Source: a virus. From it: a DNA stretch of 21,697 nucleotides. Position 1 is the stretch's first letter. Every line of letters starts with the position of its first letter. Shown one piece after another: positions 4,817-21,697 of the stretch. The notes beneath the pieces were generated by a model, which had not been told where the DNA came from, did not search any database, and saw nothing but the letters and a program-made list of their open reading frames with translations. The stretch is from IMG/VR virus record IMGVR_UViG_3300034101_003863, positions 1-21,697 of that record. One strand, written 5' to 3'. Position numbers and translations under genes: made by a program.

Positions 4817-5451
4817 CAGATTGCCTCCACCAGTTTGACCGTGCCATTATCCATCAATATACCGTCTTCATAAACCATTCCTATCACGGTGTCTGTGTCA
4901 TACTTACAGTTCATGATCACGTCATCTTGATATGTGATTGTGGTTCCTGCCGGGACGGCTGAACGTAATACGGGATAGATATTCAATGCAACTGTGTTCA
5001 AAGTGCCTGATAAAACAGCATCAGATGTGATCATATAAATCTTTGTGTGATTACTGAACTTTATGAATGTACCTTTTGGTATGACTTTTGCGTTGTTACT
5101 TGCGTTTGCACTGATCAACAGTTGTGATGCACTTGCCGCAGTTGCGGCATAAATTGCCACTGTGCTCGTGGCTGTCTTGGCCTGTTTTGCCCCGTAATTT
5201 TGGGGCATTATAATTTGCATTGTTTCTGAAACACCTTTCGTGATAAAATTTACCATCAGGTCTTGAGCGGAGGTGGAAAGTGGAGACAATCGCGCCTCCA
5301 CCTCCCATCTTTGTGTTGCTCTTCTGAAGGTATTTCTTTTCAATGAAAGGGTATCTGAAACAGTCACAGGTTGATTACTTCTGACTGTGAGCGGAGTCAC
5401 AAATTCAGCTATCACCTTCGCCTGTGTCGAATCGTAGATACCATATGCCAT
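4816..5451 (-). CDS. Minor/distal tail protein
   Basis: 211 residues, directly downstream of the tape measure gene and overlapping its stop by one base (TAATG). The N-terminal part (residues about 20-75) contains LSLKRNTFRRATQRWEVEAR and TMQIIMPQNYG. This resembles the beta-barrel of distal tail-type proteins that form the first ring below the tube, in which an R-W-E motif precedes a long helix. The middle is Ala/Ser/Thr-rich (about 90-125). The C-terminal half (about 125-205) is mostly beta, with PKGTFIKFSNHTKIYMITS. That stretch looks like a small inserted barrel of the kind seen in phage tail proteins where values such as 'start/finish of coordinate' are bounded. Gene order (tape measure, this protein, a second ~200-residue protein, J-like hub) supports a tail-tip role. 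I do not recognise a specific named family with confidence. Confidence 0.6.
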   Translation of the reverse strand: MAYGIYDSTQAKVIAEFVTPLTVRSNQPVTVSDTLSLKRNTFRRATQRWEVEARLSPLSTSAQDLMVNFITKGVSETMQIIMPQNYGAKQAKTATSTVAIYAATAASASQLLISANASNNAKVIPKGTFIKFSNHTKIYMITSDAVLSGTLNTVALNIYPVLRSAVPAGTTITYQDDVIMNCKYDTDTVIGMVYEDGILMDNGTVKLVEAI

Positions 5452-8400
5452 TATCTTCTATAACCTCTTTCTTTATTGTGATTGTTTACACCTTCCGCGA
5501 TATTGGGAAGCATTTTGTATATTTCTGCTTTTGTTTGTCTAGAGATGTCACCTGTGATTGTCAAGTTGACAATTTGTTGACTTCCTGAAGAATTTGCAGA
5601 TGCTGCTGGCTTTATGTCAACCATGTTCGGTTGAAGCATCACAGGAGTCGATGTATCTCCGATTAAACCACCTGTGGCAAATTTTGGAGTCTTTCCTGAA
5701 TTTAAGGCTTGAAGCAAACCCAGATGTTCTTTAGTTGCTGCGGCATTCACCACGAATTCACCGTTGGATACCATTGCCATTATGGAATCAGAAGTCCCTG
5801 TGCCTGGGCCGGATATGCGACCACCGTCGGCAAAGAAACCTCCCATGCTCGAAAAAGCACCCATTATGGAGCTTCCAATATCACCTAAACTACCGCCAAG
5901 ACTACCCATCAAACTACTTAAACCGTCAGTTAAGCTTCCAAAAACACTACCAAAAGACTCGCCTATTCCTGATAACAAATCACCGCCTTTTGAAAACAAA
6001 CTTGAAAAAGAGTCAGATATTGTTGAGAAGATGCTGCTACTTTCGCCCACAGAACTTGCCATATTTGTTTCAAAAGTATCTGCCATTGAAGCAAACTTAG
6101 GAGTAAATGCGGATTCCATTGCAGAAGCACTGTCACCAATCTTCGATGGCATCCCGGAAACTGCTGAAAGATCTGCCATGTTTGACGAAATCCCTGCACC
6201 TTCAAAATTCATCATGGTGCTCGGAGATGTATTCCACAATCCGGACACAGGATCAAAACCTGAAGCAATATTGCCAAACAATTGATTTGTAGGAGAACCA
6301 GCGGAAACCAAACCAGAAACTTGGCTTGATAACCCTGCAAATAAAGAAGTGCCCTGGGCAAGTCTATTTCCTTTATCGCCACCTTTGTCTTGCCCCAATA
6401 GAATCTTCTCAATCCTTTGAAGCACAGTCACGGTTTCAGCCGTGTTTGCGGAGACACCTTGGTCTGTGTATTGCCCAAATGTGCTGCTGAAACTGTCCAA
6501 GAAAGACTTATCACCGAACAAACTTGAGAATGTGGCGGAACCTGCTGAGAACACACCCTTGCCAAGATCAGAAATCATACCACCGGCTTTTTCCGTCAAA
6601 GGCTTGGTTAAACCTTCAATGAATGTGTCTGTGATAGAGCCTGTGACTTTGTCCAGCATACCAGCGGTAAATTCCTTGAATGTGGATTTACCTTTGACAA
6701 GATCTTTTATGCCATCCTTGAAGCCAGAAGATACGTCAGATGAGAACGCCTTGCCTGCATCTTCAGCGGCTTTCTTCATGGAGACTTCATCAAGTTTTTC
6801 TTTAATTTTATCGAGTTGATCATTATAGTCATCCACAGATTTCTTTAGCAGTCTGCGAGTATCATCTGAGATCAAATCACTGTCTAGTAATGCATTTGTT
6901 TCACCTATTTTTGATACCAAGTCTATTGCAGCTTTCGCCTGTGCATCTGATGCATTCAACCATGTTTCTTCAAAAGTCTGTCCATAATGGATAAATGCCA
7001 GTTTTAATTTTCGCAAGCTACTTGTGGTATTTGATTGTAAAGTTTTATAAAATTGCTCATTTTCTTTCAATCTAGCATCGTCTATGGCCTGGTAAGCAGC
7101 ATCACTTCTTTGTGTACCAGAAGTACTAGGCTTATTATCAATTACATCTACTGTGGGTAGGGTTTTTGTGTCAGACGGTAATGGCTTACCTGTTGTCAAA
7201 ATTGCATTTGTATTCTCAATACCTTTCTTTATCTCTTTTTGTAATTCAACCTGAGCAGTTAAAGGGTCTTGCATTGTCTTTTGAAGTTGTTCATAAACAG
7301 ACAATGGATCTGCACCTTCCGCCAATTTATTGAATATTTTGGTTTGTTCTTCTGTCAACTGAGGTAAATCGCCTATTTTTGACAAAGCATCTAACGCCCC
7401 TAGATTTTCAATTGAGATTTGTCTTTGTGCTCTAGGAACTTTTATAAAATCTTTAAATTCAATACCACTTTGTCCAGATAAAGCTTTGAATTTTTCAAAA
7501 GCTGCCTTAGCACCTGTTGTCATACCTTCTGTGATAGATTTAGCAAAAGAGGAAGTTATTGCAGCAAAATCTAATACATTTTCTTTTATTGAAATTGCTC
7601 TTTTATTTGCTTGATCCAATAATCCCACCAACTCTTTAAACCTAAGATTGTTTTTAGGATCTTTCATGGACTCTTGTAAGGAAGTTATTTCAGAATCAAT
7701 TTGAAATAAATCTTGTATAGTACTATCCGGTAACAATTTAATCAAAGAATTGTCAGTAACACCAACTCTGCTCAAACCCTGCAACATTTTTGCAGGTGTG
7801 GAATAAATGACCTTGGATAATTTTTCAAATGCAATTGCAGAAGCTCTCATTTTACGTTCAACAAGCTTGTCTATTTCTGATTTACTTACAGTATTGCCCA
7901 ATTTTTGAATTGCTTCTTCCAAGTCAGATACAGCATATAGTGCTGATTTAAGTTGTTCAAAATCAGTGCTTGATAATACTTTAAGATCTTCTACGGTTAT
8001 TTGTTGACCAGTTGCAGACAATAAAGATGTCAAAGATTTTGCTTCTTTTGTTGTTTCTGTAAAATCCTTTTTAAGTCTCTCTATTTTAGAACTTAATTTT
8101 GCAACAGATTCTTGAGAACCTCCACTTTGCATCAAAGTATCTCTTTCTTCTATCATTGCGTTTAAATCAACGATAGCCTTACGAGTCGGATTTATGCCCT
8201 TTGTTCTTATTGCATCGTAATAATCAATACCAGCTCTTGAAGCTAAATCAAGCATTGCCAATGACGAAGTACTACCAGAAGTTAATTCTTTTGTAAAATC
8301 TGTATTTAATTGTTTTAAACTTGTTTGTGTTTCTTCAAAAGCAGTGGTATATGCTTTACCCACATCATCAGCTTGTTTAAAAATATAACCCATTTTAGCT

Positions 8401-11400
8401 TTTTCTAAAGTAGGTCCTGGAGATAGTAGGCTTATAGATTTCTTTGTTTTAAGATCTTCTACTTTATTGGCCAATTCAGTATAGGCCTTTGCATATTTAT
8501 CAGCAGCCTCATCCGTCATTCTCTGATATACTTGGTCGGAAAATACGGGAGCACCAGCCTTGGTCATTATGTCTTTGAGTTTAAATTGCTTTCTAGACAT
8601 ATCCACAGCTTCACCAAGATTCTTTTCTTGTGTAAATCTTGTGACCAATTCTTTTATTCGAATTATTATTTCACCTCTTTGTCCAATATCAGATGTTTTA
8701 TCCAATTGTTCATTTAAAACTTTAGCTTCATTTCCGATTTCTTTCAAACGATCTAGAGATGCCTGATCAGCCACTAATAATTCTTTGAAATTTACTTTAG
8801 AGCCTGTTAACGTGGTTAAGTTTGCTTCTAAATTTTGCAGTTGTTTGTTAAACTCTTCAATCTTAGTTCTTTCTCCAAGATCTTTGTAAGCAGTGAATAT
8901 ATCATTTGTTGCACTACTTAGGGCTTCTGCTTGTTTTACTTGTAAACCAGTCCGTGCTTGTTCAGAGAGAGGTGTTGGAGTATACTTACCCATAAAACCT
9001 GTCTTTGCTGTTCGTGCCAATTCATCGGTATACTTAACATAATCGGAAGTGGCTTTATTAATTTTTTCAACCAAGCCAGGATCCAAATTATCTATCATTG
9101 TAGATGCTTTATACAATTCACTCAGATTCTTTTCAGACTTAGATAACCCTTTGAAATCTGCCTTATATTTAGTACCTTTTTCAGAAGATAAATTTCTTAT
9201 TTCATCTGCAATTTGTTTTGCAGCTTCTTTATCAAAAGTCACCTTAAGTTTAGCCTTTAAGAAATTTTCTTTTATGGTATACTTAAAATCCAATACACCC
9301 TGCTCAAAATTATTTGCTATTTTATCGAAATTTCTAATAGGTTCTGGGTTATAAATTTTATTCAAACTTTCTTCTATCTTAGAAGGATCAAATGCAGATT
9401 TTGAAGTCAATTTATCTGTTAATTTAGATAAACCTTTTATTTCGTCTTCAATGGCTTTCCTTTCTTCTGAACCAAATTCAGCGCCTTTTTCATAAGAATT
9501 TGCTGAATTAATTAAACTAGTATTAAGCTCATCTATTCTGGAGTTAAGCTTATCAATAGATGCTGTATCTAAGTTATTTTTATTTATATCTCTTATATCA
9601 TAACCGATACTTACTCTACGCTCTTTTGCAAAAGCCTCTGCTTGTTTAGATAATCCTGTTATATCAGACGTCTTAGTTGTACTACCTAGTCCAATGATTT
9701 CTTTTGTCTTACCATATACACTTTGAAGATCTTCCAATAAATTCCCAGATTCACCAAATAACCATGTATATAATAAACCTCCACCAACAACTGTTATTGC
9801 AATTGCACCAATCAATGTTGATATAGATAAGCCTATCAATTTAGCCAAATTACGAAATACCTTCAAAAATGCTGCTTGCAAAGAACGATTAAAATGAAAG
9901 GCAAGTAAAGCAGCTGCAGTGCCGCCTATCTCTGCCAACTGAGATCCACCTAAAAGATTCCCACCCAGTGCACCTAGAAAATAACTACTTGCAATTATTC
10001 CAACACCTTTGAAAGCCAATGCGAATTTACCAATCCCTTCTATACCGCTTTTGAAAACTGTTTTAAAGTCTATATATTTGAAGATATTCATAAATGATAA
10101 AGCTTTTTGCGCTAAATTTGCAAAGCTTCCACCCAATTGAACAGAACTCGTAAGTGCTTTTGCTGTTATGTCAGAAGTTATAATATTACCAATTAATTTA
10201 AAAGTACTAAGTATCTGATCTTTAAAGAAATATATACTTGCAAGTGTGATACTACTATAGAATCCAAAACTATCAGGCAATCCTGAAAATATTTCCTTAA
10301 AATTAATTGAAGTTATGCTTTCTTTTATTGAATCAAATAATGTTTTTTGAGATATTGCCGCGTCTTCACTTGCATTTGCCATGGAAGAGAATAACGACAT
10401 TGCCATACCTATTAATATGGTTATCCCGAGTCTGCCAAAAAGGAATTTACCGATTACACCCATTGAACCTGAAGTTCCTGAAAATTTAGAAGAAAAACCT
10501 GTCAATATTGATGATATATTCGTGATAGTTGCATTTGTTGAATTTGAAAAATAATCCAATACTTTTGGTATCTGATTGAAAGAAGATAATAAAACATCTC
10601 TCATGGATTTTGAAATATCCTCAAACACCTTTACAAATTTCATTTTCGTGGACATCTGAGGTAATGTTTTGCTACTAAACACATCAAATAAATTTGTATG
10701 CTTAGAAATTTCCGACATCGTCAGCATCATTCCCTTTAGTATCGGATCTAATATTTCTTTTCTAACTGTTTTCAACAATGTTGCACTGCCTTTGTCACCC
10801 AAGAGTGCAAGGTAAATTAGACCACCTTGTGCAGCCAAATGTGCAATCGGAGAGCCTGAAAATAGTGAATCAAATGTTCCTAGTGAATTAAGGATCAAAC
10901 CTAAAACTGAGAAGGTAGTTACTGCTCGCCCCTTTCCAAATAACATCTCAGATATTAAGCCTTCTTTTCCGCCAACAAATTTACCTAGACTGGTTCCCAA
11001 GGAAAATATCAACTCTATTTTGTCTTTGAAAATACCTAAATAAGCTAATCCTTTCAGTATATTCTTACCTAAGAAATAACTCAAAAGAAGTCCTAGAGGT
11101 CCGCTGATTCCTGCCAGATCTGCAATACCTAATATAGCAGATAAGGCTGTTCCTATTATAGGCAATTCTTTTACAAAACCTGTTATAAAACGTGAGGTGG
11201 CCACTGATAGTGCATTGAGTAATGCGGGTAAACTTTCAATAAAACTAGCAACAAACTTTCCGGCCAATTCACCTACAAAATTAAAAGCAGCTCCAACCAG
11301 ACTTTCATTTGCAAAAGCATTTGTCAATTCTTCTGTTAAAAACGTAGAACTCTTAATAAAGCTAGATAGCAAGGCACCTTCAATTATTAGTTTAATACCA

Positions 11401-13442
11401 CTCGGAGGAAATAACAAGCTTGTCAATATCAACCCAAAGCCTGACAAAATACTTTTCAATATGTCTGGAGCTTGTTCAAAAGTCGTTTTAAACACAAAAT
11501 TCAGATTTTCCCCAAAACTTTTAAAGAAAGAAACTAAGGAATCAGCTGAAAAATTTAACCCTATGTCTTCTACCTTATTAACTATCTTCTTTTTCACTTC
11601 AGGTCTCAGTGTAAGACCATCTGAGGAAAATAACTCTTTTGTACCTGAATAAATGGCTTCAAAAGTACTTGAGACTTTGTCTTTAAAATCTAGGACGCCT
11701 CTTTTGGAATTATTCCAAAGATTTGCGGAAGTTTCTTTCACATTTTCCACAGTATCTGTCCACCAAGAATGTCCTATTACTTGGTCGTATATCTGAAAAA
11801 AAGCTTCAATTACATTTTTGCTGAATGATAGTATATTTGTTAACGCTGAATTTAGGTTTGATTTTTCATAAATAGCCTTGAAAAAATCACTGATAATAAG
11901 TTTGGCTTCAATTAAATTATCTATGAAATAGTCTTTTATTGCAACACCTATATCAGAAAAAGTATCCTTTAATGCGGCCAATCCAGGCATGAAATAAAAA
12001 TTAAACAATTTATTCAATTCATAAAATTTTATTGATAACCCTGTCACACCACGAATCATCTGGTTTAACGTACCCAAGAAATTAGATAGTAAACCTGGTT
12101 TTATCACAAATAAATCATTTGTAAGTCCAAAATAATTGCTTAAAAATCTCAAATTAAATATGAGATTAGAGGTAAAACGATCCAACCTAGAAGAGATACT
12201 GGCGGTGTTTCCTGCTATAGCTTTTGCCAAAATATTAAAAGCTATTCCATACTCTCTTAGACTTTTTTCATTAAATAAGTATTTGATGTAGTCTGCATCA
12301 AAACCTTTTGAGAATATCGAGCGAGGGCTCAATCTTTTTAAAATGGTGATCGCATCTTCTACGTCACTGCGTATTGAAATCACATTTATTATTTTAAAGC
12401 CTAAAAATGAAGAAAAGAGATTCAGGACTTTATCATCAATGAAACGAAATGCAGAGTTAACATCTTGTATGAGTGTCCTACCGAAAAATACTTTGGGAAA
12501 TATCTCATATGCTTGTTTCCCTACTGCACTTAGCATGGTTAATATAGGTTTACCTATGTTTTGTGCAGCTGCACCAAACTTGTGAAATACTATTGCAAAA
12601 CTATTACCTAATTCGAAAGCATCAAAAGAAGCCTTTCGAATCGAATGCGATATATCTAATGCAGTGCCGGATAGTCTTTCTGACAAACCCAATCCCTTGT
12701 CAAGCTCATAAATATATGTTTGTATGGCTTCTGTTAAAGATTCCCCTGCTTGTGCTGCTGTAACTGATGTAACTGCAAATTCAGAACTTATTTTTGCTGC
12801 CTGACTCTCTAACGCCTTAAACACTACATCAGATGTGACTTGGCCTTCTGCAGCCAGTTTACGTAATTGGCCTGTAGATATATCGAGCTCATCTGTAATA
12901 GCTTTTGCCAATCGTGGCGCTTGTTCCAATACTGAATTAAGTTCTTCACCTCTGAGAGTGCCCGACGACAATCCTTGTCCTAATTGAGTAATAGCCGCTG
13001 CTGCACTAGTTGCACTACCGCCTGTCATGGCAATAGCTTTCTGTATAGTTTCAGTGGTTTTTAATATGCGTGTGTTTGAGATACCTGCGCTGGCAAGAGA
13101 TCTGCCTAATGATGCGTAAACATCTGTTGTACTTTTTATCGATACACGTGTAGCCTCAGAAATTTTATAAAGTTCTTCCTGAGTTTTTATCAATTCTTTA
13201 TTTCTACCAGTGACCAATGCCACTTTATTTTCCAATTCCTTGAAGCTGGTAGAAATTTCTTTTACATAATTTAATCCAAGACCTACTGCGGCTGTTCCTC
13301 CTAGCGTTAAAAACATCTCTTTCAAAGAAGAAGACACATCAGTAGTGCTTTTATCAATATTTTTGAGTGAGCGATTTATATTGGCTAAGTCTTTTTCAGC
13401 CTGCGAAGTTCTTGTTTGGACATCTAATAGAATACCTGACAT
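5451..13442 (-). CDS. Tail tape measure protein
   Basis: 2663 residues, far longer than the lambda tape measure (853). It sets tail length and occupies the tail lumen. Residues about 1-245 match the conserved N-terminal tape-measure domain: a heptad-rich start, then SATSAAAAITQLGQGLSSGT, LRGEELNSVLEQAPRLAKAI and GQLRKLAAEGQVTSDVVFKAL. Residues about 655-1225 hold many hydrophobic helices (e.g. IAITVVGGGLLYTWLFG near 1210), likely membrane-active during DNA entry. About 1230-2150 is coiled-coil-rich. About 2470-2600 is Gly/Ser-rich and ends in FADGGRISGPGTGTSDSI and VSNGEFVVNAAATKEHLG, the standard C-terminal signature. The sequence GAGAGG lies 4 bases before the ATG. By the usual 0.15 nm per residue the tail would be roughly 400 nm (inference). 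Base composition changes near 6.8 kb, inside the gene. No peptidase or muramidase motif is obvious. Confidence 0.96.
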   Translation of the reverse strand: MSGILLDVQTRTSQAEKDLANINRSLKNIDKSTTDVSSSLKEMFLTLGGTAAVGLGLNYVKEISTSFKELENKVALVTGRNKELIKTQEELYKISEATRVSIKSTTDVYASLGRSLASAGISNTRILKTTETIQKAIAMTGGSATSAAAAITQLGQGLSSGTLRGEELNSVLEQAPRLAKAITDELDISTGQLRKLAAEGQVTSDVVFKALESQAAKISSEFAVTSVTAAQAGESLTEAIQTYIYELDKGLGLSERLSGTALDISHSIRKASFDAFELGNSFAIVFHKFGAAAQNIGKPILTMLSAVGKQAYEIFPKVFFGRTLIQDVNSAFRFIDDKVLNLFSSFLGFKIINVISIRSDVEDAITILKRLSPRSIFSKGFDADYIKYLFNEKSLREYGIAFNILAKAIAGNTASISSRLDRFTSNLIFNLRFLSNYFGLTNDLFVIKPGLLSNFLGTLNQMIRGVTGLSIKFYELNKLFNFYFMPGLAALKDTFSDIGVAIKDYFIDNLIEAKLIISDFFKAIYEKSNLNSALTNILSFSKNVIEAFFQIYDQVIGHSWWTDTVENVKETSANLWNNSKRGVLDFKDKVSSTFEAIYSGTKELFSSDGLTLRPEVKKKIVNKVEDIGLNFSADSLVSFFKSFGENLNFVFKTTFEQAPDILKSILSGFGLILTSLLFPPSGIKLIIEGALLSSFIKSSTFLTEELTNAFANESLVGAAFNFVGELAGKFVASFIESLPALLNALSVATSRFITGFVKELPIIGTALSAILGIADLAGISGPLGLLLSYFLGKNILKGLAYLGIFKDKIELIFSLGTSLGKFVGGKEGLISEMLFGKGRAVTTFSVLGLILNSLGTFDSLFSGSPIAHLAAQGGLIYLALLGDKGSATLLKTVRKEILDPILKGMMLTMSEISKHTNLFDVFSSKTLPQMSTKMKFVKVFEDISKSMRDVLLSSFNQIPKVLDYFSNSTNATITNISSILTGFSSKFSGTSGSMGVIGKFLFGRLGITILIGMAMSLFSSMANASEDAAISQKTLFDSIKESITSINFKEIFSGLPDSFGFYSSITLASIYFFKDQILSTFKLIGNIITSDITAKALTSSVQLGGSFANLAQKALSFMNIFKYIDFKTVFKSGIEGIGKFALAFKGVGIIASSYFLGALGGNLLGGSQLAEIGGTAAALLAFHFNRSLQAAFLKVFRNLAKLIGLSISTLIGAIAITVVGGGLLYTWLFGESGNLLEDLQSVYGKTKEIIGLGSTTKTSDITGLSKQAEAFAKERRVSIGYDIRDINKNNLDTASIDKLNSRIDELNTSLINSANSYEKGAEFGSEERKAIEDEIKGLSKLTDKLTSKSAFDPSKIEESLNKIYNPEPIRNFDKIANNFEQGVLDFKYTIKENFLKAKLKVTFDKEAAKQIADEIRNLSSEKGTKYKADFKGLSKSEKNLSELYKASTMIDNLDPGLVEKINKATSDYVKYTDELARTAKTGFMGKYTPTPLSEQARTGLQVKQAEALSSATNDIFTAYKDLGERTKIEEFNKQLQNLEANLTTLTGSKVNFKELLVADQASLDRLKEIGNEAKVLNEQLDKTSDIGQRGEIIIRIKELVTRFTQEKNLGEAVDMSRKQFKLKDIMTKAGAPVFSDQVYQRMTDEAADKYAKAYTELANKVEDLKTKKSISLLSPGPTLEKAKMGYIFKQADDVGKAYTTAFEETQTSLKQLNTDFTKELTSGSTSSLAMLDLASRAGIDYYDAIRTKGINPTRKAIVDLNAMIEERDTLMQSGGSQESVAKLSSKIERLKKDFTETTKEAKSLTSLLSATGQQITVEDLKVLSSTDFEQLKSALYAVSDLEEAIQKLGNTVSKSEIDKLVERKMRASAIAFEKLSKVIYSTPAKMLQGLSRVGVTDNSLIKLLPDSTIQDLFQIDSEITSLQESMKDPKNNLRFKELVGLLDQANKRAISIKENVLDFAAITSSFAKSITEGMTTGAKAAFEKFKALSGQSGIEFKDFIKVPRAQRQISIENLGALDALSKIGDLPQLTEEQTKIFNKLAEGADPLSVYEQLQKTMQDPLTAQVELQKEIKKGIENTNAILTTGKPLPSDTKTLPTVDVIDNKPSTSGTQRSDAAYQAIDDARLKENEQFYKTLQSNTTSSLRKLKLAFIHYGQTFEETWLNASDAQAKAAIDLVSKIGETNALLDSDLISDDTRRLLKKSVDDYNDQLDKIKEKLDEVSMKKAAEDAGKAFSSDVSSGFKDGIKDLVKGKSTFKEFTAGMLDKVTGSITDTFIEGLTKPLTEKAGGMISDLGKGVFSAGSATFSSLFGDKSFLDSFSSTFGQYTDQGVSANTAETVTVLQRIEKILLGQDKGGDKGNRLAQGTSLFAGLSSQVSGLVSAGSPTNQLFGNIASGFDPVSGLWNTSPSTMMNFEGAGISSNMADLSAVSGMPSKIGDSASAMESAFTPKFASMADTFETNMASSVGESSSIFSTISDSFSSLFSKGGDLLSGIGESFGSVFGSLTDGLSSLMGSLGGSLGDIGSSIMGAFSSMGGFFADGGRISGPGTGTSDSIMAMVSNGEFVVNAAATKEHLGLLQALNSGKTPKFATGGLIGDTSTPVMLQPNMVDIKPAASANSSGSQQIVNLTITGDISRQTKAEIYKMLPNIAEGVNNHNKERGYRR

Positions 13443-16746: not shown

Positions 16747-17928
16747 TTAAGAATGGAAGATTGGCAAGATACCTAAAGATAATGCTGAATCAGTTTTACG
16801 TTCCCATGTGCCTTTGGCATTTGAAATTGTGTTTACAGATGTTAACAAAGTAGGAGTGCTAACTTCGATTGCATATGCATACTCTGCATCACTAGGGAAT
16901 TTATCTTGTGCGCCAGCCCAGTTATAACCGGCAGGAGCCAATACATAGCCCCAACGATACCAAATTTCGGTAGAACCGCCACCATTGTAAGAGCCTGCTG
17001 TACGTTGAATTTCAACGCCATCAGGAACATCCAAAGGTTGCATTGCAATAGCACCTGGCAATACGATATAGCTGGTTTTTGTACCAACGATATCTACGCC
17101 TGCGCCTGAATTGATTTTTGCCAATTCATTTGCACTTAAGCTTTGGTTAGCACGAGTTTGAATCAATCTGAATTTACCATTGAAAATGGTTTCAAACTGA
17201 ACATTACCTTCAGTGACAACAATGCTGTTCACTAAGTTAGCTGCGCGTAAAGAAGCCAAAGTTTCTGGAGAGCAAACTAAATAAGCCCACTCTGGCTCAT
17301 AGTCTTTGAAAGCCATGCCAAAAGCGCTTAAGAACGCTGTTGCACGAGCCGAGCCTTGTTCTGCAGCAGAAGCAGGAATGACAGGTTTGCCTGCGCCTAA
17401 ATCGACATAAAAACCATAGCGTTTGTCTTTAACATCATTTTCAAAGGTTTGACCACCCAAGCCTGGTTGACCTGAACCTGCTGCCGCACCGTTCAATGCT
17501 TCGGAAATTGCAACACCTTTCAAAATGGCAAGAATTGCATTGTGTTCATCTTGCGCTTGAGTTTCACCAAAATCAAGACCAATTTTTGCTAAACCGTCTT
17601 GTTGAGTGACAACTTGTTGCAAGTTAACTTTTTCTGCACCATGTGTACGAACTGTTTTTACATAGTTCAAGAAATCAGAAGCATAGTTAGTTTTTGAACC
17701 AACAGCTGCAGAAGTCAAAGATGCAACATTGATCACAGGGTTTAATGGTTTAAACCAACGAACTTGGCCGATGAAGGTTTCAGTTGATGTATCAATGTTT
17801 GGGTTTGAGCCGACAATACCTGTACCCGACAATTTACGAGCGTTGGTATAGGCTTCATCAGAATAAGCACTGATAGTGCTTTGTAAAACAAAAGTTGTAG
17901 CGCCAGCTAAGTCTGTTGTTGCTGTCAT
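16747..17928 (-). CDS. Major capsid protein
   Basis: 393 residues. It lies directly after the scaffold gene and before the adaptor. Its start is preceded by AAGGATTTTTAA, a clear ribosome-binding site. Residues about 55-70 contain GQVRWFKPLNPVINVASL. The middle has DEHNAILAILKGVAISEALN and a Gly-rich loop (GAAAGSGQPGLGGQTFEN). The C-terminal half has EIWYRWGYVLAPAGYNWAGA, as in a group of siphovirus capsid proteins where RWGYVLHP(x)GY occurs near the C-terminus. It is probably an HK97-fold subunit (inferred). No protease motif or separate head protease gene is visible in the window; scaffold removal may be encoded upstream or may not need cleavage. Codon use is richer in GC than in the tape measure gene, in line with a highly expressed protein. 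Confidence 0.93.
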   Translation of the reverse strand: MTATTDLAGATTFVLQSTISAYSDEAYTNARKLSGTGIVGSNPNIDTSTETFIGQVRWFKPLNPVINVASLTSAAVGSKTNYASDFLNYVKTVRTHGAEKVNLQQVVTQQDGLAKIGLDFGETQAQDEHNAILAILKGVAISEALNGAAAGSGQPGLGGQTFENDVKDKRYGFYVDLGAGKPVIPASAAEQGSARATAFLSAFGMAFKDYEPEWAYLVCSPETLASLRAANLVNSIVVTEGNVQFETIFNGKFRLIQTRANQSLSANELAKINSGAGVDIVGTKTSYIVLPGAIAMQPLDVPDGVEIQRTAGSYNGGGSTEIWYRWGYVLAPAGYNWAGAQDKFPSDAEYAYAIEVSTPTLLTSVNTISNAKGTWERKTDSALSLGILPIFHS

Positions 17929-17943
17929 TTAAAAATCCTTAAA

Positions 17944-18606
17944 TTATCTCCGAGGGAGTTTACCCTCAGTAGCGAGTTTTAGTACTTCTTCTTGGCTCAT
18001 TTCAAACAGAGATTTGCCTGAAGAAGAATTTTTGTTTGTAGAGCTACTGTTTGAACTTCCAGTCCCATTTGATACTTTTGCTTTAAACAAGAAAGAGTTA
18101 TCTTCGGCTTCAGAAAAGACTTTTACAAAATCTTTGATTGAAATACCTGATTTGTGAACCCATGAGCCACTTTCGTTTTGGATGAGTTGTCCCACAATTT
18201 CCTTACGAGCCATTTCTACAGCTTTTTCATTTCTGAATTGATAGCTTGATAAAGCCGACTGAACATCTCGATCACGAGTAAGCTCTACATTCCGTCTTTC
18301 CAACGCTTCTTTTTCAGCTTTGATTTCAGCCAATTGTAACTCATAAGCTTCTTTGTGTTTACCTTCATCTTGTAAACGCTGTAATTCTGCTTCTTTTTCT
18401 TTTTGTTTATAAGTGGCAAGCTCTTTCAGCACATCGTCTCTTGCACCATATGCTTTATCTAACTTACCTTTAATGTCTTTGAGGCTTTCCTCTAACCGTT
18501 CTTGTACAAGTTTTTCCACTAAATCTTTTTCAGAATCAGTGTTGCCAGTGGTTTTGTCATCAACATTTGTATTTTCTGGATCTGTATTGTCAGTATTTGT
18601 AGTCAT
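17944..18606 (-). CDS. Capsid scaffolding protein
   Basis: 220 residues from the ATG at 18606, which follows CAAGG by 7 bases. The open frame extends to 18744, but that extension runs through a promoter-like region and overlaps the polymerase stop, so I reject it. The first 25 residues are a polar Asn/Asp/Thr-rich tail. Residues about 27-115 form a long charged coiled coil (LVEKLVQERLEESLKDIKGK, then a series rich in Glu/Lys). The C-terminal part has a Ser/Asn/Gly-rich linker (VSNGTGSSNSSSTNKNSSSG) and ends in FEMSQEEVLKLATEGKLPRR, a short basic helix as in scaffold proteins that contact the capsid. Placement immediately before the major capsid gene supports the call. Confidence 0.85.
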   Translation of the reverse strand: MTTNTDNTDPENTNVDDKTTGNTDSEKDLVEKLVQERLEESLKDIKGKLDKAYGARDDVLKELATYKQKEKEAELQRLQDEGKHKEAYELQLAEIKAEKEALERRNVELTRDRDVQSALSSYQFRNEKAVEMARKEIVGQLIQNESGSWVHKSGISIKDFVKVFSEAEDNSFLFKAKVSNGTGSSNSSSTNKNSSSGKSLFEMSQEEVLKLATEGKLPRR

Positions 18607-18725
18607 TGTTTTACCTTGAGTACGACTCGTTATGAGAAAAATACAATTTTTCTCTTGGAATTCATTTAGTATAATTTTGTATTTAATTTCAACTTCTATT
18701 ATACGGGTTAATTTAACGGGTTTCG
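18607..18725 (-). promoter_or_regulatory. Intergenic promoter region of the capsid operon
   Basis: A 119-base gap between the polymerase stop and the scaffold start. It has a perfect sigma70-type -10 box TATAAT (+ strand ATTATA at 18698-18703), preceded by the direct repeat AACCCGT (two copies, 13 bases apart). No good TTGACA-like -35 is visible at 16-18 bases; TTAACG is at about 20. An AT-only-centred hairpin with arms GAGAAAAA and TTTTTCTC is at 18634-18654, and an imperfect palindrome GAGTACGACTC at 18618-18628. It may drive the head-tail genes by host or phage polymerase. The promoter call rests on the -10 box and position. Confidence 0.5.
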
Positions 18726-19115
18726 TTAACCTACTCCGTACCAACCGTAATCACCCTCAAAATTTGAAGGCACTTCTTTCAAGATATCTTCTTTTAACAA
18801 GATATCGGATTCTTTTAGAACCTTACCACCTACAACAGACCGCCCTGCAATAGGTATCAAACCAATGTCAATGGCTTCATTCAAATACTTATCGTATAAG
18901 TCTTGCGGTAAACCTCTGGCTTTCATTTCATCAAGCGTAGAGACTATTACATTTTTATCTAAGGTCTTTGCATATATCTTTCGTAATGCATTTCTTGCAT
19001 TTAACATTTCTGCTGCATTCGCAAAGAAAGCATCGTGAATTGTACTTGTGGGTACATTATTTGCCTTGCCCCATAGATGGAAATTTTTAACAATTGTTGC
19101 GTCATTAGAATGATT
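18726..19115 (-). CDS. Single-subunit RNA polymerase, last exon (motif C and C-terminus)
   Basis: 129 codons, joined by splicing to the exon at 19850-20905. It begins NHSNDATIVKNFHLWGKANN and continues VPTSTIHDAFFANAAEM. This aligns with T7 RNA polymerase from His784 (HSQDGSHLRK...) to the motif C aspartate (IHDSF, Asp812), with nearly the same spacing (25 versus 27 residues from the His to the HD pair). The second metal-binding Asp is thus present in IHDAF. After motif C come a helical segment (LNARNALRKIYAKTLDKNVI) and an aromatic end DYGWYGVG, like the aromatic C-terminal 'foot' of T7-type enzymes. The DNA polymerase A counterpart would read VHDE, so RNAP fits better. The stop is at 18726-18728. 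The methionine at 19007 is not a gene start. Confidence 0.82.
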   Translation of the reverse strand, partial: NHSNDATIVKNFHLWGKANNVPTSTIHDAFFANAAEMLNARNALRKIYAKTLDKNVIVSTLDEMKARGLPQDLYDKYLNEAIDIGLIPIAGRSVVGGKVLKESDILLKEDILKEVPSNFEGDYGWYGVG

Positions 19116-19638
19116 CGTTTTGTTCAGATTGATCGCTAGTCAATCCCGTCAATATATTTAGCTTGGCAAATTTACCCTGTAATTTAATAGCAAGTTCATC
19201 ATAAGCAATAGCCGCTTCTAACTCTGTATTAAATTGACCAATATAGTGTCTTCTATCTTCAAAGCGAATAGAAGCCTTCCAATAACCTTTGACTGCATCA
19301 AACCAAACCCCTTTGTATTTGCTTGTTCCATTTGATTGTCTAGCCTTATTGTATTGGTTTTCCAAGGCTGTTGCGAGTCGTAGATTCTCAATATGATTAT
19401 TTTGTCTATTGCCATCAATATGATCTATGAATAAATCATCTGGTATTTCTTTGTTTGTCAAAATGAACCACGTGAGTCTATGTATATAGTAATATTTACC
19501 ATCAACTCGTACTCGTCTGTAACCGTCTTCAGCAATATAGCCAGCTTCTGCGTCTTTTTTAGCAGAGCCTCTTGAAATACGGTTATATAATTTACCATTT
19601 TTATAGTAGAAAAGAGCCTTCAGGCGTTCTAACTTCAT
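19105..19638 (-). CDS. Intron-encoded HNH homing endonuclease with AP2 DNA-binding domain
   Basis: 177 residues inside the left group I intron, starting after hairpin P9. The start is preceded by GAGGAA. Residues about 1-40 are a small beta lead-in (YKNGKLYNRISRG). HRLTWFILTNKEIPDD, then FIDHIDGNRQNNHIENLRLA (residues about 53-90), is the HNH_3 nuclease core with its His and Asn residues. Residues about 105-162 are an AP2/ERF-type domain: SKYKGVWFDAVKGYWKASIR, then YIGQFNTELEAAIAYDELAI. This architecture is common in phage homing endonucleases that cut intronless alleles. The stop codon lies about 10 bases beyond the predicted 3' splice site, inside the last exon, so the ORF overlaps the host gene in another frame. 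Mobility in the present is inferred, not shown. Confidence 0.88.
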   Translation of the reverse strand: MKLERLKALFYYKNGKLYNRISRGSAKKDAEAGYIAEDGYRRVRVDGKYYYIHRLTWFILTNKEIPDDLFIDHIDGNRQNNHIENLRLATALENQYNKARQSNGTSKYKGVWFDAVKGYWKASIRFEDRRHYIGQFNTELEAAIAYDELAIKLQGKFAKLNILTGLTSDQSEQNESF

Positions 19639-19849
19639 TTTTAATTTCCTCTAAATATTTAACTACTGCATGTTACCATGCAGACCAGACTATCTCTTCA
19701 ATCTTTCGATTGTTCCGCGCTTCGAACACGCTTGTGCCCTACATAATAGTCGTTACACCTTCAATGGAATTTTATATTCCAAAGCTTGGCTCGGTATTGT
19801 CCATTAAGGAGTTTCACCGAATTCACGGAATTTTAAAACGGCTAAGTCA
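19116..19849 (-). ncRNA. Group I intron (complete, 734 nt) in the RNA polymerase gene
   Basis: P1 forms between exon AAACGGU (19856-19850) and intron GCCGUUU (19842-19836), with the U·G wobble at the splice site (19850 with 19842). The core contains CGGTGAAACTCC, GGACAATACCGAGCCAAGC and the R-like GTGTAACGACTA. P7 pairs GACTA (19747-19751) with TAGTC (19688-19692), in the typical S motif AAGAGATAGTC. P8 is a hairpin at 19699-19712 (CAATC, GAAA, GATTG). P9 is a 7-bp hairpin with a GUAA tetraloop at 19666-19683. The last intron base is G (19116). Joining the flanks restores ...AFAVNG|NHSNDA... in frame. Subgroup IA-like from the conserved core; splicing itself is inferred. The HNH-AP2 gene lies after P9. 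Confidence 0.9.
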
Positions 19850-20905
19850 ACCGTTTACTGCAAAGGCAGTACGCGCTCTTGTTGAATCGGCAATGTCATT
19901 TATTTTGCCGTCCTTATTCATCATTTCTTCCCACCAAGTCATTTCAGTCTTTTGAGGTACTTGCAATATATTGGTGGTCCACTCGCCTTGCTTGTTCTTG
20001 TAAAAAAGTCTTTCTTCAAATTGTTGTGTGAAATTCTGCTCAATCACTTTTCCATCAAAATTAACCCAAGGAACATTTGTCCAAGATTTTGGCATCTTAT
20101 TTGCGCTGAGGAACTCAACTTCAAATACATCTTGTTCTTCCAAAAACTTACCTTGTAGTAAATTTGTTGGCGTCGGTGCAGCAGGTCTCAAAAACGACAG
20201 TTTAAAATATTTACCGCCAGTCCTTCTTGATTCAGGTATTGCAGTACCATACAGGATATCGTGTAAATTACTGTCTGGTTTGTAAAAACTTAATCGCTTT
20301 AAAACTTTTTCACTTAAAGCTTCCCCTGCCTTTAACCCAAGGATCTGGCTGATTGTATCTGGCAAAACATAGCCCTTTCTTTTACTGCCAAATATCCTTT
20401 CCTTTGCAATCACATTCCAATCAAAAGCAGCAGACGATGGTTTTGCATTGTTCAGGTAATCTTCCGCCAATCTTCCAAAGAACTTTGTGAAGTCTTTTAA
20501 GATAGGTACCTGTTCTCTGAGATGCTCGCTCATTATTTTTGCGATATCTTTGAAATCGCCCGGAGTGACAATCCTTTCATAATTCAAAGAAAGTTTCTCC
20601 ACAAGATCTTTTGTCTTAGGTTCCAAGAAATAAAGTTGATCTAAAATTTCATCACCTGGGTCTAAACCTTTATTAAAGATATCCTTGACATTCTCTCTGA
20701 GTGCTCTCAATTCATCTGCGGTCACTTGGTCAAACTTTTCATATCTTGCTATACGAGCGGAAATCTCATTGAGCACAGTTTCACGATCTGAAGCTTTTAC
20801 GACGAGCGTATCCTTATCTTTACCGAGAACTTTGGAGAGTTTACCTTCTACATTTAATGTGCCGGTTCTTTCGCCAGCGCCGTAGAACGTTACCATATTT
20901 TGCAT
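19850..20905 (-). CDS. Single-subunit RNA polymerase, internal exon (motif B side)
   Basis: 352 codons lying between the two introns. The first residues MQNMVTFYGAGERTG match motif B of single-subunit RNA polymerases (K-R-S-V-M-T-L-A-Y-G in T7, with Tyr639-Gly). The catalytic Lys should lie just before the intron, outside the window. The exon ends TEMTWWEEMMNKDGK, then DSTRARTAFAVNG, leading to the His784-like region in the last exon. WVNFDGKVIEQNF resembles the conserved segment that precedes it in T7. From motif B Tyr to the motif C Asp there are about 372 residues, against about 173 in T7, so some 200 extra residues are inserted here. The ATG at 20905 follows the endonuclease stop directly, but it is within the exon and not a start. 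It could be an N4-type virion polymerase or polyvalent protein (uncertain). Confidence 0.8.
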
Positions 20906-21538
20906 CTATCTTTGAATGCACTCGCTAGGTGCATCCGATTCATAATAAAAATCAGGATAATTTTCAGATTTACAACGTCGAGAAATCACATTATGACAAA
21001 TTTTATGGGCTTTACCAGCATCTCTGACAGAGCCAAATCTGCCTAGAGGCGTGATAACTGCTTTTGACCTAGGATGCAAGTCACCTGTTTTATTTTTCAT
21101 ATACATTGGATGAGCAGGGTCTTTAAACATAAAGGCATTTGATTCCTTCATTTGCTCATAATTCTCAGACCATTGCACCTTAGCACTTGTGCTTGCGCGA
21201 TCTTTGTGCTCTTGTAATTTCATGTGATTGTGTTTTGAAAAAGCCTTTTTTGCAATTTCATAATGAATTGCCTTGAAAGTTCCTTTTCTCTCAGACTTTC
21301 TTTCAATGTCGCACATACCAAAGAACGCACGAGCCATCTGCTTGTTGTCATGAATTTTATATAAAAGCCAATGGGCAATAAAGTGCGCACGTCCAGACAA
21401 ATAAATCAGATTGTCTTTTTCATTTCCGCCACCCATAGATTTTGGGATGATGTGGTGCAATTCATAGTAGCCATCAGTGGGCTTTACTTCAGTGCCATGT
21501 TTAAGTAACAAGTTTACATAAAGATTGTTGTAATTCAT
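20906..21538 (-). CDS. Intron-encoded HNH homing endonuclease (second type)
   Basis: 210 residues in the right-hand group I intron, starting after its P9 hairpin and preceded by AGGAAATGAA. The HNH core is at residues about 22-56: GYYELHHIIPKSMGGGNEKD, then NLIYLSGRAHFIAHWLLYKI. This is the classical HH..P....GG......L..LS...H pattern of phage HNH nucleases, different from the HNH_3-AP2 type of the left intron. The middle is basic and helical. The C-terminal ITPLGRFGSVRDAGKAHKIC and ISRRCKSENYPDFYYE form a NUMOD/IENR-type DNA-recognition module. The stop TAG lies immediately before or at the 3' splice junction with the polymerase exon. Function by family: makes a site-specific cut in intron-free copies and thereby drives intron spread. 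Confidence 0.87.
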   Translation of the reverse strand: MNYNNLYVNLLLKHGTEVKPTDGYYELHHIIPKSMGGGNEKDNLIYLSGRAHFIAHWLLYKIHDNKQMARAFFGMCDIERKSERKGTFKAIHYEIAKKAFSKHNHMKLQEHKDRASTSAKVQWSENYEQMKESNAFMFKDPAHPMYMKNKTGDLHPRSKAVITPLGRFGSVRDAGKAHKICHNVISRRCKSENYPDFYYESDAPSECIQR

Positions 21539-21697
21539 TTCATTTCCTAAAATATTTTATTTAAATCCTATATATTTCTATATAGATGAGACCATCTCTT
21601 CAACCCGCAGGTTGTTCCGCATTTCCATCACCATCGCTTGTGATGTACGGACTTCATCAACTGTTCTAGTTGGTATGTCCTGGTCGTTACACCTTCA
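20906..21697 (-). ncRNA. Second group I intron, 5' part beyond window
   Basis: At the right edge the minus strand reads GAAGGTGTAACGACCA. P7 pairs GACCA (21681-21685) with TGGTC (21590-21594) within AAGAGATGGTC. P8 is at 21601-21614 (arms CAACC and GGTTG). P9 is a 7-bp hairpin with a GAAA tetraloop at 21568-21585. The 5' splice site, P1 and the P3-P6 half lie outside. The 3' end is near 20903-20906. A G at 20906 or at 20903 could be the last intron base. Homologous to the left intron, with compensatory changes in P7, P8 and P9. Confidence 0.82.

Follow-up and report, generated by a model that had tools for sequence, protein, structure and literature searches.

The window analysed here, the whole of a 21,697-nt (21.7-kb) virus record of a tailed phage, encodes tape measure, tail, head and scaffold proteins, every gene being on the minus strand, and reaches at its right end into the 3' part of an interrupted RNA polymerase gene. 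What kind of polymerase this gene encodes, and why its most conserved codons should be interrupted by two group I introns, as a preliminary description had proposed, are the questions that the locus raises. Exon 1, the 5' part of the gene, lies outside the window; in intact relatives, the protein joins a Phage_Mu_F head domain to a single-subunit RNA polymerase (ssRNAP), and the gene is referred to below as MuF-RNAP. Residues are numbered as in one such relative, L006, from its Met. The relevant features of the window are:

16747 to 17928, minus strand: major head protein (phrog_247, E 9.1e-20)
17944 to 18609, minus strand: head scaffolding protein, the next gene (phrog_206, E 9e-13)
18726 to 19115, minus strand: exon 3 of the MuF-RNAP gene, with the His784-like residue, motif C (IHDAF) and the C-terminus
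19105 to 19638, minus strand: HNH_3 and AP2 homing endonuclease ORF of the left intron, 177 aa
19116 to 19849, minus strand: left group I intron, 734 nt, separating codons G1429 and N1430
19850 to 20902, minus strand: exon 2 of the MuF-RNAP gene, an open frame from motif B (QNMVTFYGAG) to the VNG before the His784-like residue
20903 to 21697, minus strand: right group I intron, its 3' 795 nt, the 5' end lying beyond the contig end
20906 to 21538, minus strand: HNH homing endonuclease ORF of the right intron, 210 aa

Elsewhere in the window, positions 5451-13442 encode a 2663-aa tape measure protein (PF20155, E 9.1e-52). A match to RF02269 at 18708-18805 was dismissed, as it lay under the gathering score (E 0.23).

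Matches to the Rfam group I intron model RF00028 bear out the claim of two such introns in one polymerase gene, the left one being complete in the window and the right one whole in a relative, L003. The left core matched at 19666-19902 (77 bits, E 2.7e-18), and the limits of this intron were set by comparison with intronless relatives; the 5' exon ends in GTAAACGGT and the 3' exon begins with AATCATTCT. A 7-bp P1 helix (AAACGGU/GCCGUUU) ends in a terminal U.G pair, the final intron base is G, and an in-frame TGA stands directly at the 5' splice site. Homologous introns occupy the same site in L003, L011, L033 and L085. The endonuclease matched PF13392 (HNH_3, E 1.6e-13) and PF00847 (AP2, E 3.6e-8), both above cut-off, as well as phrog_99 (E 2.5e-58), and its stop codon lies 11 nt inside exon 3.

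The visible part of the right intron matched RF00028 with 29.9 bits (E 4.9e-5), under the gathering score because the intron is cut by the contig end. The whole intron, present at the same site in L003 (L003:2225-3103, 879 nt), scored 56.3 bits against a gathering score of 50, and the two copies are 95.7% identical across the 795 visible nt. The final base is G in the window, and the L003 intron has a 7-bp P1 with a U.G pair and a terminal G. The endonuclease matched phrog_655 homing endonucleases (E 2e-33) and, marginally below the cut-off, PF01844 (E 2.9e-4). Both introns encode homing endonucleases, as had been described, and both enzymes are of HNH families. When joined, the exons form a single 480-aa open frame that aligns with uninterrupted relatives. 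Exon 2 is 93% identical to L002 and L003, while exon 3 is 99% identical to L003 and also aligns with the uninterrupted genes.

Both insertion points fall at the catalytic core. T7 RNAP relies on Y639 and H784 for ribose discrimination, and the window's two introns therefore flank this function. The H1431-S-N-D of L006 corresponds, by motif, to the H784-S-Q-D of T7 RNAP, and on this match the earlier reading of the His site, directly before the His784-like residue, was right to within one codon: the left intron separates G1429 from N1430, one codon 5' of H1431, and the described distance of 28 codons to the end of IHD is correct. The right intron had been placed just before the Tyr-Gly of motif B but lies six codons upstream of it, between A1078 and Q1079, one codon after the K631-like motif B lysine. 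The window itself holds motif B without its lysine, the His motif and motif C.

Exon 2 alone gave no match in PDB, PHROGs or Pfam, and exon 3 matched the phrog_2051 RNA polymerase weakly (E 0.0016); the family becomes apparent only through intact relatives. In L006, one open frame contains Phage_Mu_F (PF04233, E 5.9e-14) and RNA_pol (PF00940, E 3.6e-12) domains and matched phrog_241 (head morphogenesis) and phrog_414 (RNA polymerase). The MuF domain is N-terminal in the intact relatives and the polymerase forms the C-terminal part of the same protein, a region beyond the window. Phage_Mu_F and a T7-type RNAP share a single frame at L006:2767-7440, L087:8055-12626 and L067:2611-7002. Full-length, uninterrupted copies of the fusion gene numbered 77 among the relatives, and at least 547 stretches encode a relative, locus counts mirroring search patterns and not abundance. 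Within the phage collection, only EBPR siphovirus 1, DSS3_VP1 and DSS3_PM1 contain the whole fusion, and their records describe it as a head or minor head protein.

The ssRNAP motif residues of L006 (D861 of DxxGR, D1011 of motif A, K1077 and Y1085 of motif B, H1431, and D1457 of motif C) show little or no variation across 51 relatives. An AlphaFold model of the polymerase part built from 51 sequences reached pLDDT 83 and pTM 0.82 (from nine sequences, pLDDT was only 55), and it matched T7 RNAP with Z 25.6 over 526 residues at 3.5 A, mitochondrial RNAP with Z 26.4, and N4 virion RNAP (mini-vRNAP, VIA-align) with Z 18.6. We know of no MuF domain in N4 vRNAP. With PF00940 above cut-off in the intact relatives and a predicted fold that matches T7 RNAP, the placement in the single-subunit family made in the preliminary description holds.

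In-frame domains of variable occurrence were observed in loops of the polymerase (L033:1362-1808, L028:3501-4307, L041:4076-4855 and L002:5260-5775); one is GNAT-like, and the others tested had no Pfam match. These insertions look like variable loop domains and could possibly be injected cargo domains. Inteins were considered for the insertions near L006 residues 987-991 and 1109-1112 and rejected, as none of them matched a Pfam intein model.

The order of genes is portal, MuF-RNAP, scaffold and major head, identically so in DSS3_VP1; in L087, too, the portal gene lies upstream of MuF-RNAP. Because the polymerase is fused to a Phage_Mu_F head protein and is encoded between portal and scaffold, it is probably a virion RNAP. 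Fusion to a head protein within a structural operon makes it more likely that the enzyme would be made late, packaged in the head and used for early transcription in the next infection, a route suggested by the MuF fusion and the gene order. An alternative holds that it is no virion enzyme at all, acting as a late polymerase in the same cell or serving purely in structure or packaging, its polymerase fold a relic, and the second, more T7-like free RNAP of these phages (described below) would fit such a role. This alternative is unlikely, as the catalytic residues are conserved in the 51 relatives, the fusion and gene order are typical of head proteins, and N4 and phiKZ, the known two-RNAP phages, each combine a virion enzyme with a non-virion one.

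The double interruption reported in the preliminary description is real but is no curiosity of this contig. Group I introns were found at ten positions in the MuF-RNAP genes of relatives, with up to four per gene: F880 (S1), A1012/S1013 (S2), A1075/A1076 (B0, in L113), A1078/Q1079 (B1, the window's right intron), V1082 (B2), F1084 (B3), G1429/N1430 (S6, the window's left intron), S1432/N1433 (S6b), I1455 (S7a) and D1457/A1458 (S7b). Rfam matches at the gathering score back nine of the ten, B0 in L113 not being among the matches. The positions form five clusters, located after DxxGR and at motif A, motif B, the His motif and motif C. The expectation that insertion occurs at invariant codons was confirmed, since every one of the ten sites ranked among the best-conserved 5% of positions in the gene (percentiles 95-99.7); when five positions were drawn at random, equal conservation arose about once in 100,000 draws (P ~1e-5), even within the polymerase half. 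The nucleases encoded were of HNH_3 type with NUMOD4, AP2 or HTH parts, or of the phrog_655/HNH type.

Several relatives illustrate how densely these motifs are occupied. Four group I introns interrupt one gene at L062:4028-8345, two with nuclease ORFs and two without. In L048 (630-1161), L049 and L061, two introns lie in motif B with a 17-nt exon between them, as read from the sequence. In EBPR siphovirus 1 (L066, JF412302.1), an unannotated motif B intron splits the gene into gp47 (head protein), gp48 (HNH) and gp49 (hypothetical). At L113:11868-12831, the intron lies at RKA/AKAQ, 9 nt upstream of the usual AKA/QNM, and the same AAGGCT exon hexamer precedes both points, as if the guide sequence had used a nearby repeat. 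Some boundaries in relatives are provisional, because a simple P1 scan found no strong uninterrupted P1 in six introns, including those of EBPR siphovirus 1 and L062 S1, and the junction drawn for L114 lacks a terminal G.

Comparisons among close relatives revealed how these introns are distributed and related. The introns of the window and L003, the latter carrying both in complete form, are 95.7-95.8% identical, against 75-91% per 100 nt for most of the intervening exon 2; the left intron is furthermore flanked by a tract of 95-98% identity extending about 1 kb downstream (one 100-nt block at 88%). Such a tract is as expected of homing with co-conversion and bears indirectly on cleavage by the HNH nuclease. 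Identical exon-2 proteins occur with differing introns: L040 has none, L046 has B2, and L049 has B1 and B3; L032 and L033 differ at the left site; and L008 has none while L009 apparently has S6, the latter ending before exon 3, so that its S6 intron is deduced. Intron labels were unclustered on the tree, with B1 requiring nine changes for nine rows (shuffled mean, 8.7); for S6, only manually read sites were counted, and the 11 changes obtained with the automatic label were set aside, as that label also flagged uninterrupted genes with variant motifs. Any one site is occupied by homologous introns, and at S6 the homology spans the full intron with its nuclease; B1 and B2 introns, at sites 11 nt apart, are related over 400-800 nt as well. 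Finally, L024 and L048 share a B1 intron, 99% identical over 200 nt, with and without a nuclease ORF. Together, these comparisons document recent intron mobility at the level of sequence.

The account that we consider highly probable is that the gene encodes a probable virion MuF-RNAP of T7/mitochondrial type and contains two mobile homing introns that splice out, spread by their HNH nucleases and belong to a repeated invasion of this gene family. Each intron would fold as a ribozyme and leave the transcript, restoring an uninterrupted polymerase message, and each nuclease would cut or nick intronless copies of the gene in co-infecting relatives, into which the intron would then be copied. The catalytic codons that serve as targets could not easily be mutated by competitors, and imprecise loss of an intron would kill the polymerase, which would explain why the same few motifs have been invaded repeatedly.

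The preliminary description had further suggested that splicing could couple late transcription to intron processing, a proposal that is unsupported, as the sequence gives no clear pointer to regulation. More generally, the introns might be kept because splicing regulates polymerase synthesis, and several of them, like the window's left intron, begin with an in-frame stop at their 5' splice site that would keep unspliced RNA from being translated. A stop within two codons or fewer was present in 10 of 28 introns against 16% expected, a mild excess among related introns that are not independent; moreover, presence is sporadic even where the exon-2 protein is identical, unlike that of a needed control element, making this explanation very improbable. 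Similarly improbable is a gene permanently in pieces, with introns that no longer splice and exons translated separately and assembled as a split polymerase, for although an in-frame ATG directly precedes exon 2 (the last three bases of the intron), gp47 and gp49 of EBPR siphovirus 1 are annotated as separate ORFs, and N4 RNAPII is a natural two-subunit ssRNAP, neither ribozyme cores nor splice junctions are damaged, most introns have P1 helices, the break would part the lysine of the motif B helix from its tyrosine, and uninterrupted genes prevail among the relatives. Mobile homing introns that repeatedly invade polymerase genes are the best reading.

The invasion extends to a second polymerase. 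MuF-RNAP was present in all 15 long relatives searched, and in 14 of these a further, stronger RNA_pol match marked a distinct gene for a free T7-like RNAP, whose open frame spans about 730-780 aa in intact copies; its counterpart in DSS3_VP1, gp080, is annotated as RNA polymerase. Group I introns interrupt the free RNAP gene in four records (G002, G004, G009 and G014), with sites placed by inspection of the junctions. In G014, an intron lies right after the Asp-Gly of motif A, the equivalent of S2 in MuF-RNAP, and another just before DxxGR; in G009, one lies right after the Lys-Arg of motif B, the equivalent of the window's right intron; and in G002 and G004, one lies in the codon of the motif B tyrosine. 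Free T7-like RNAP genes interrupted by group I introns were observed at loci L189, L190, L191 and L192. A 74-kb contig of the same phage type (L187, JAOUJT010000001.1) lies inside a gammaproteobacterial metagenome bin, a hint of the host or a binning error. On a broader scale, we give roughly even odds to the view that these phages are a widespread, for the most part uncultivated group with an ejected MuF-RNAP and a free RNAP, both genes being battlefields on which homing introns serve as weapons between co-infecting phages, directed at homologous codons of the two paralogues.

The closest tested precedent is gp210 of phage PhiPA3, an HNH endonuclease in a group I intron of the virion RNAP gene that attacks the intronless homologue of a co-infecting phage (PMC11620839, 2024). 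Both cases involve an HNH-bearing group I intron in a conserved RNAP gene, here with a probable virion role. In the jumbo phages of that study, however, a single intron interrupts the beta subunit of a multisubunit RNAP, whereas here introns enter a head-fused ssRNAP at ten positions, as many as four to a gene, and invade a further RNAP too. Group I introns are known to favour conserved sites of polymerase genes, as in the SPO1 DNA polymerase (PMC2814812), and the major capsid protein of a crAss-like phage is split into five ORF fragments (PMC7886860). The present case shares with these the conserved-codon insertion rule and the presence of several introns in a phage gene, but differs in the host gene and in having ten mapped positions in one family and two homologous ones in a paralogue. 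As insertion at conserved codons is an established rule, the intron part of the finding is a striking case of known behavior.

The newer part, as far as we have searched, is the fusion of MuF with an ssRNAP, for which no describing paper was found under partial literature coverage. Phage MuF fusion proteins join the MuF domain to enzymatic domains thought to be injected (PMC5512222), and the partners named in the sections consulted are other enzymes, with no ssRNAP found among them. Like phage P23-45 (PMC10770324), these phages have a polymerase fused to a structural protein plus a second, non-virion RNAP; there, in contrast, it is the tape measure that carries the polymerase, an enzyme related to cellular RNAPs, while here the partner is a MuF head protein and the fold is of T7 type. 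The single-subunit virion RNAP fold is shared with N4 (Z 18.6), which also has another RNAP in its genome (PMC4496689), but N4 vRNAP is a giant protein and the fold here is closer to T7 and mitochondrial RNAP (Z ~25-26).

How a phage begins its infection is decided by virion RNAPs, and building a T7-type polymerase into a head protein would add a packaging route beside those of N4 and the P23-45 tape measure fusion, in a protein that public records annotate as a head protein only. The gene is also a natural homing experiment, with ten positions, neighboring related introns, alleles with and without introns that share an identical exon-2 protein, a 17-nt exon with a ribozyme on either side, and two homologous targets in a paralogue. 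In a cultivated relative, the idea that such introns act in competition between phages becomes testable.
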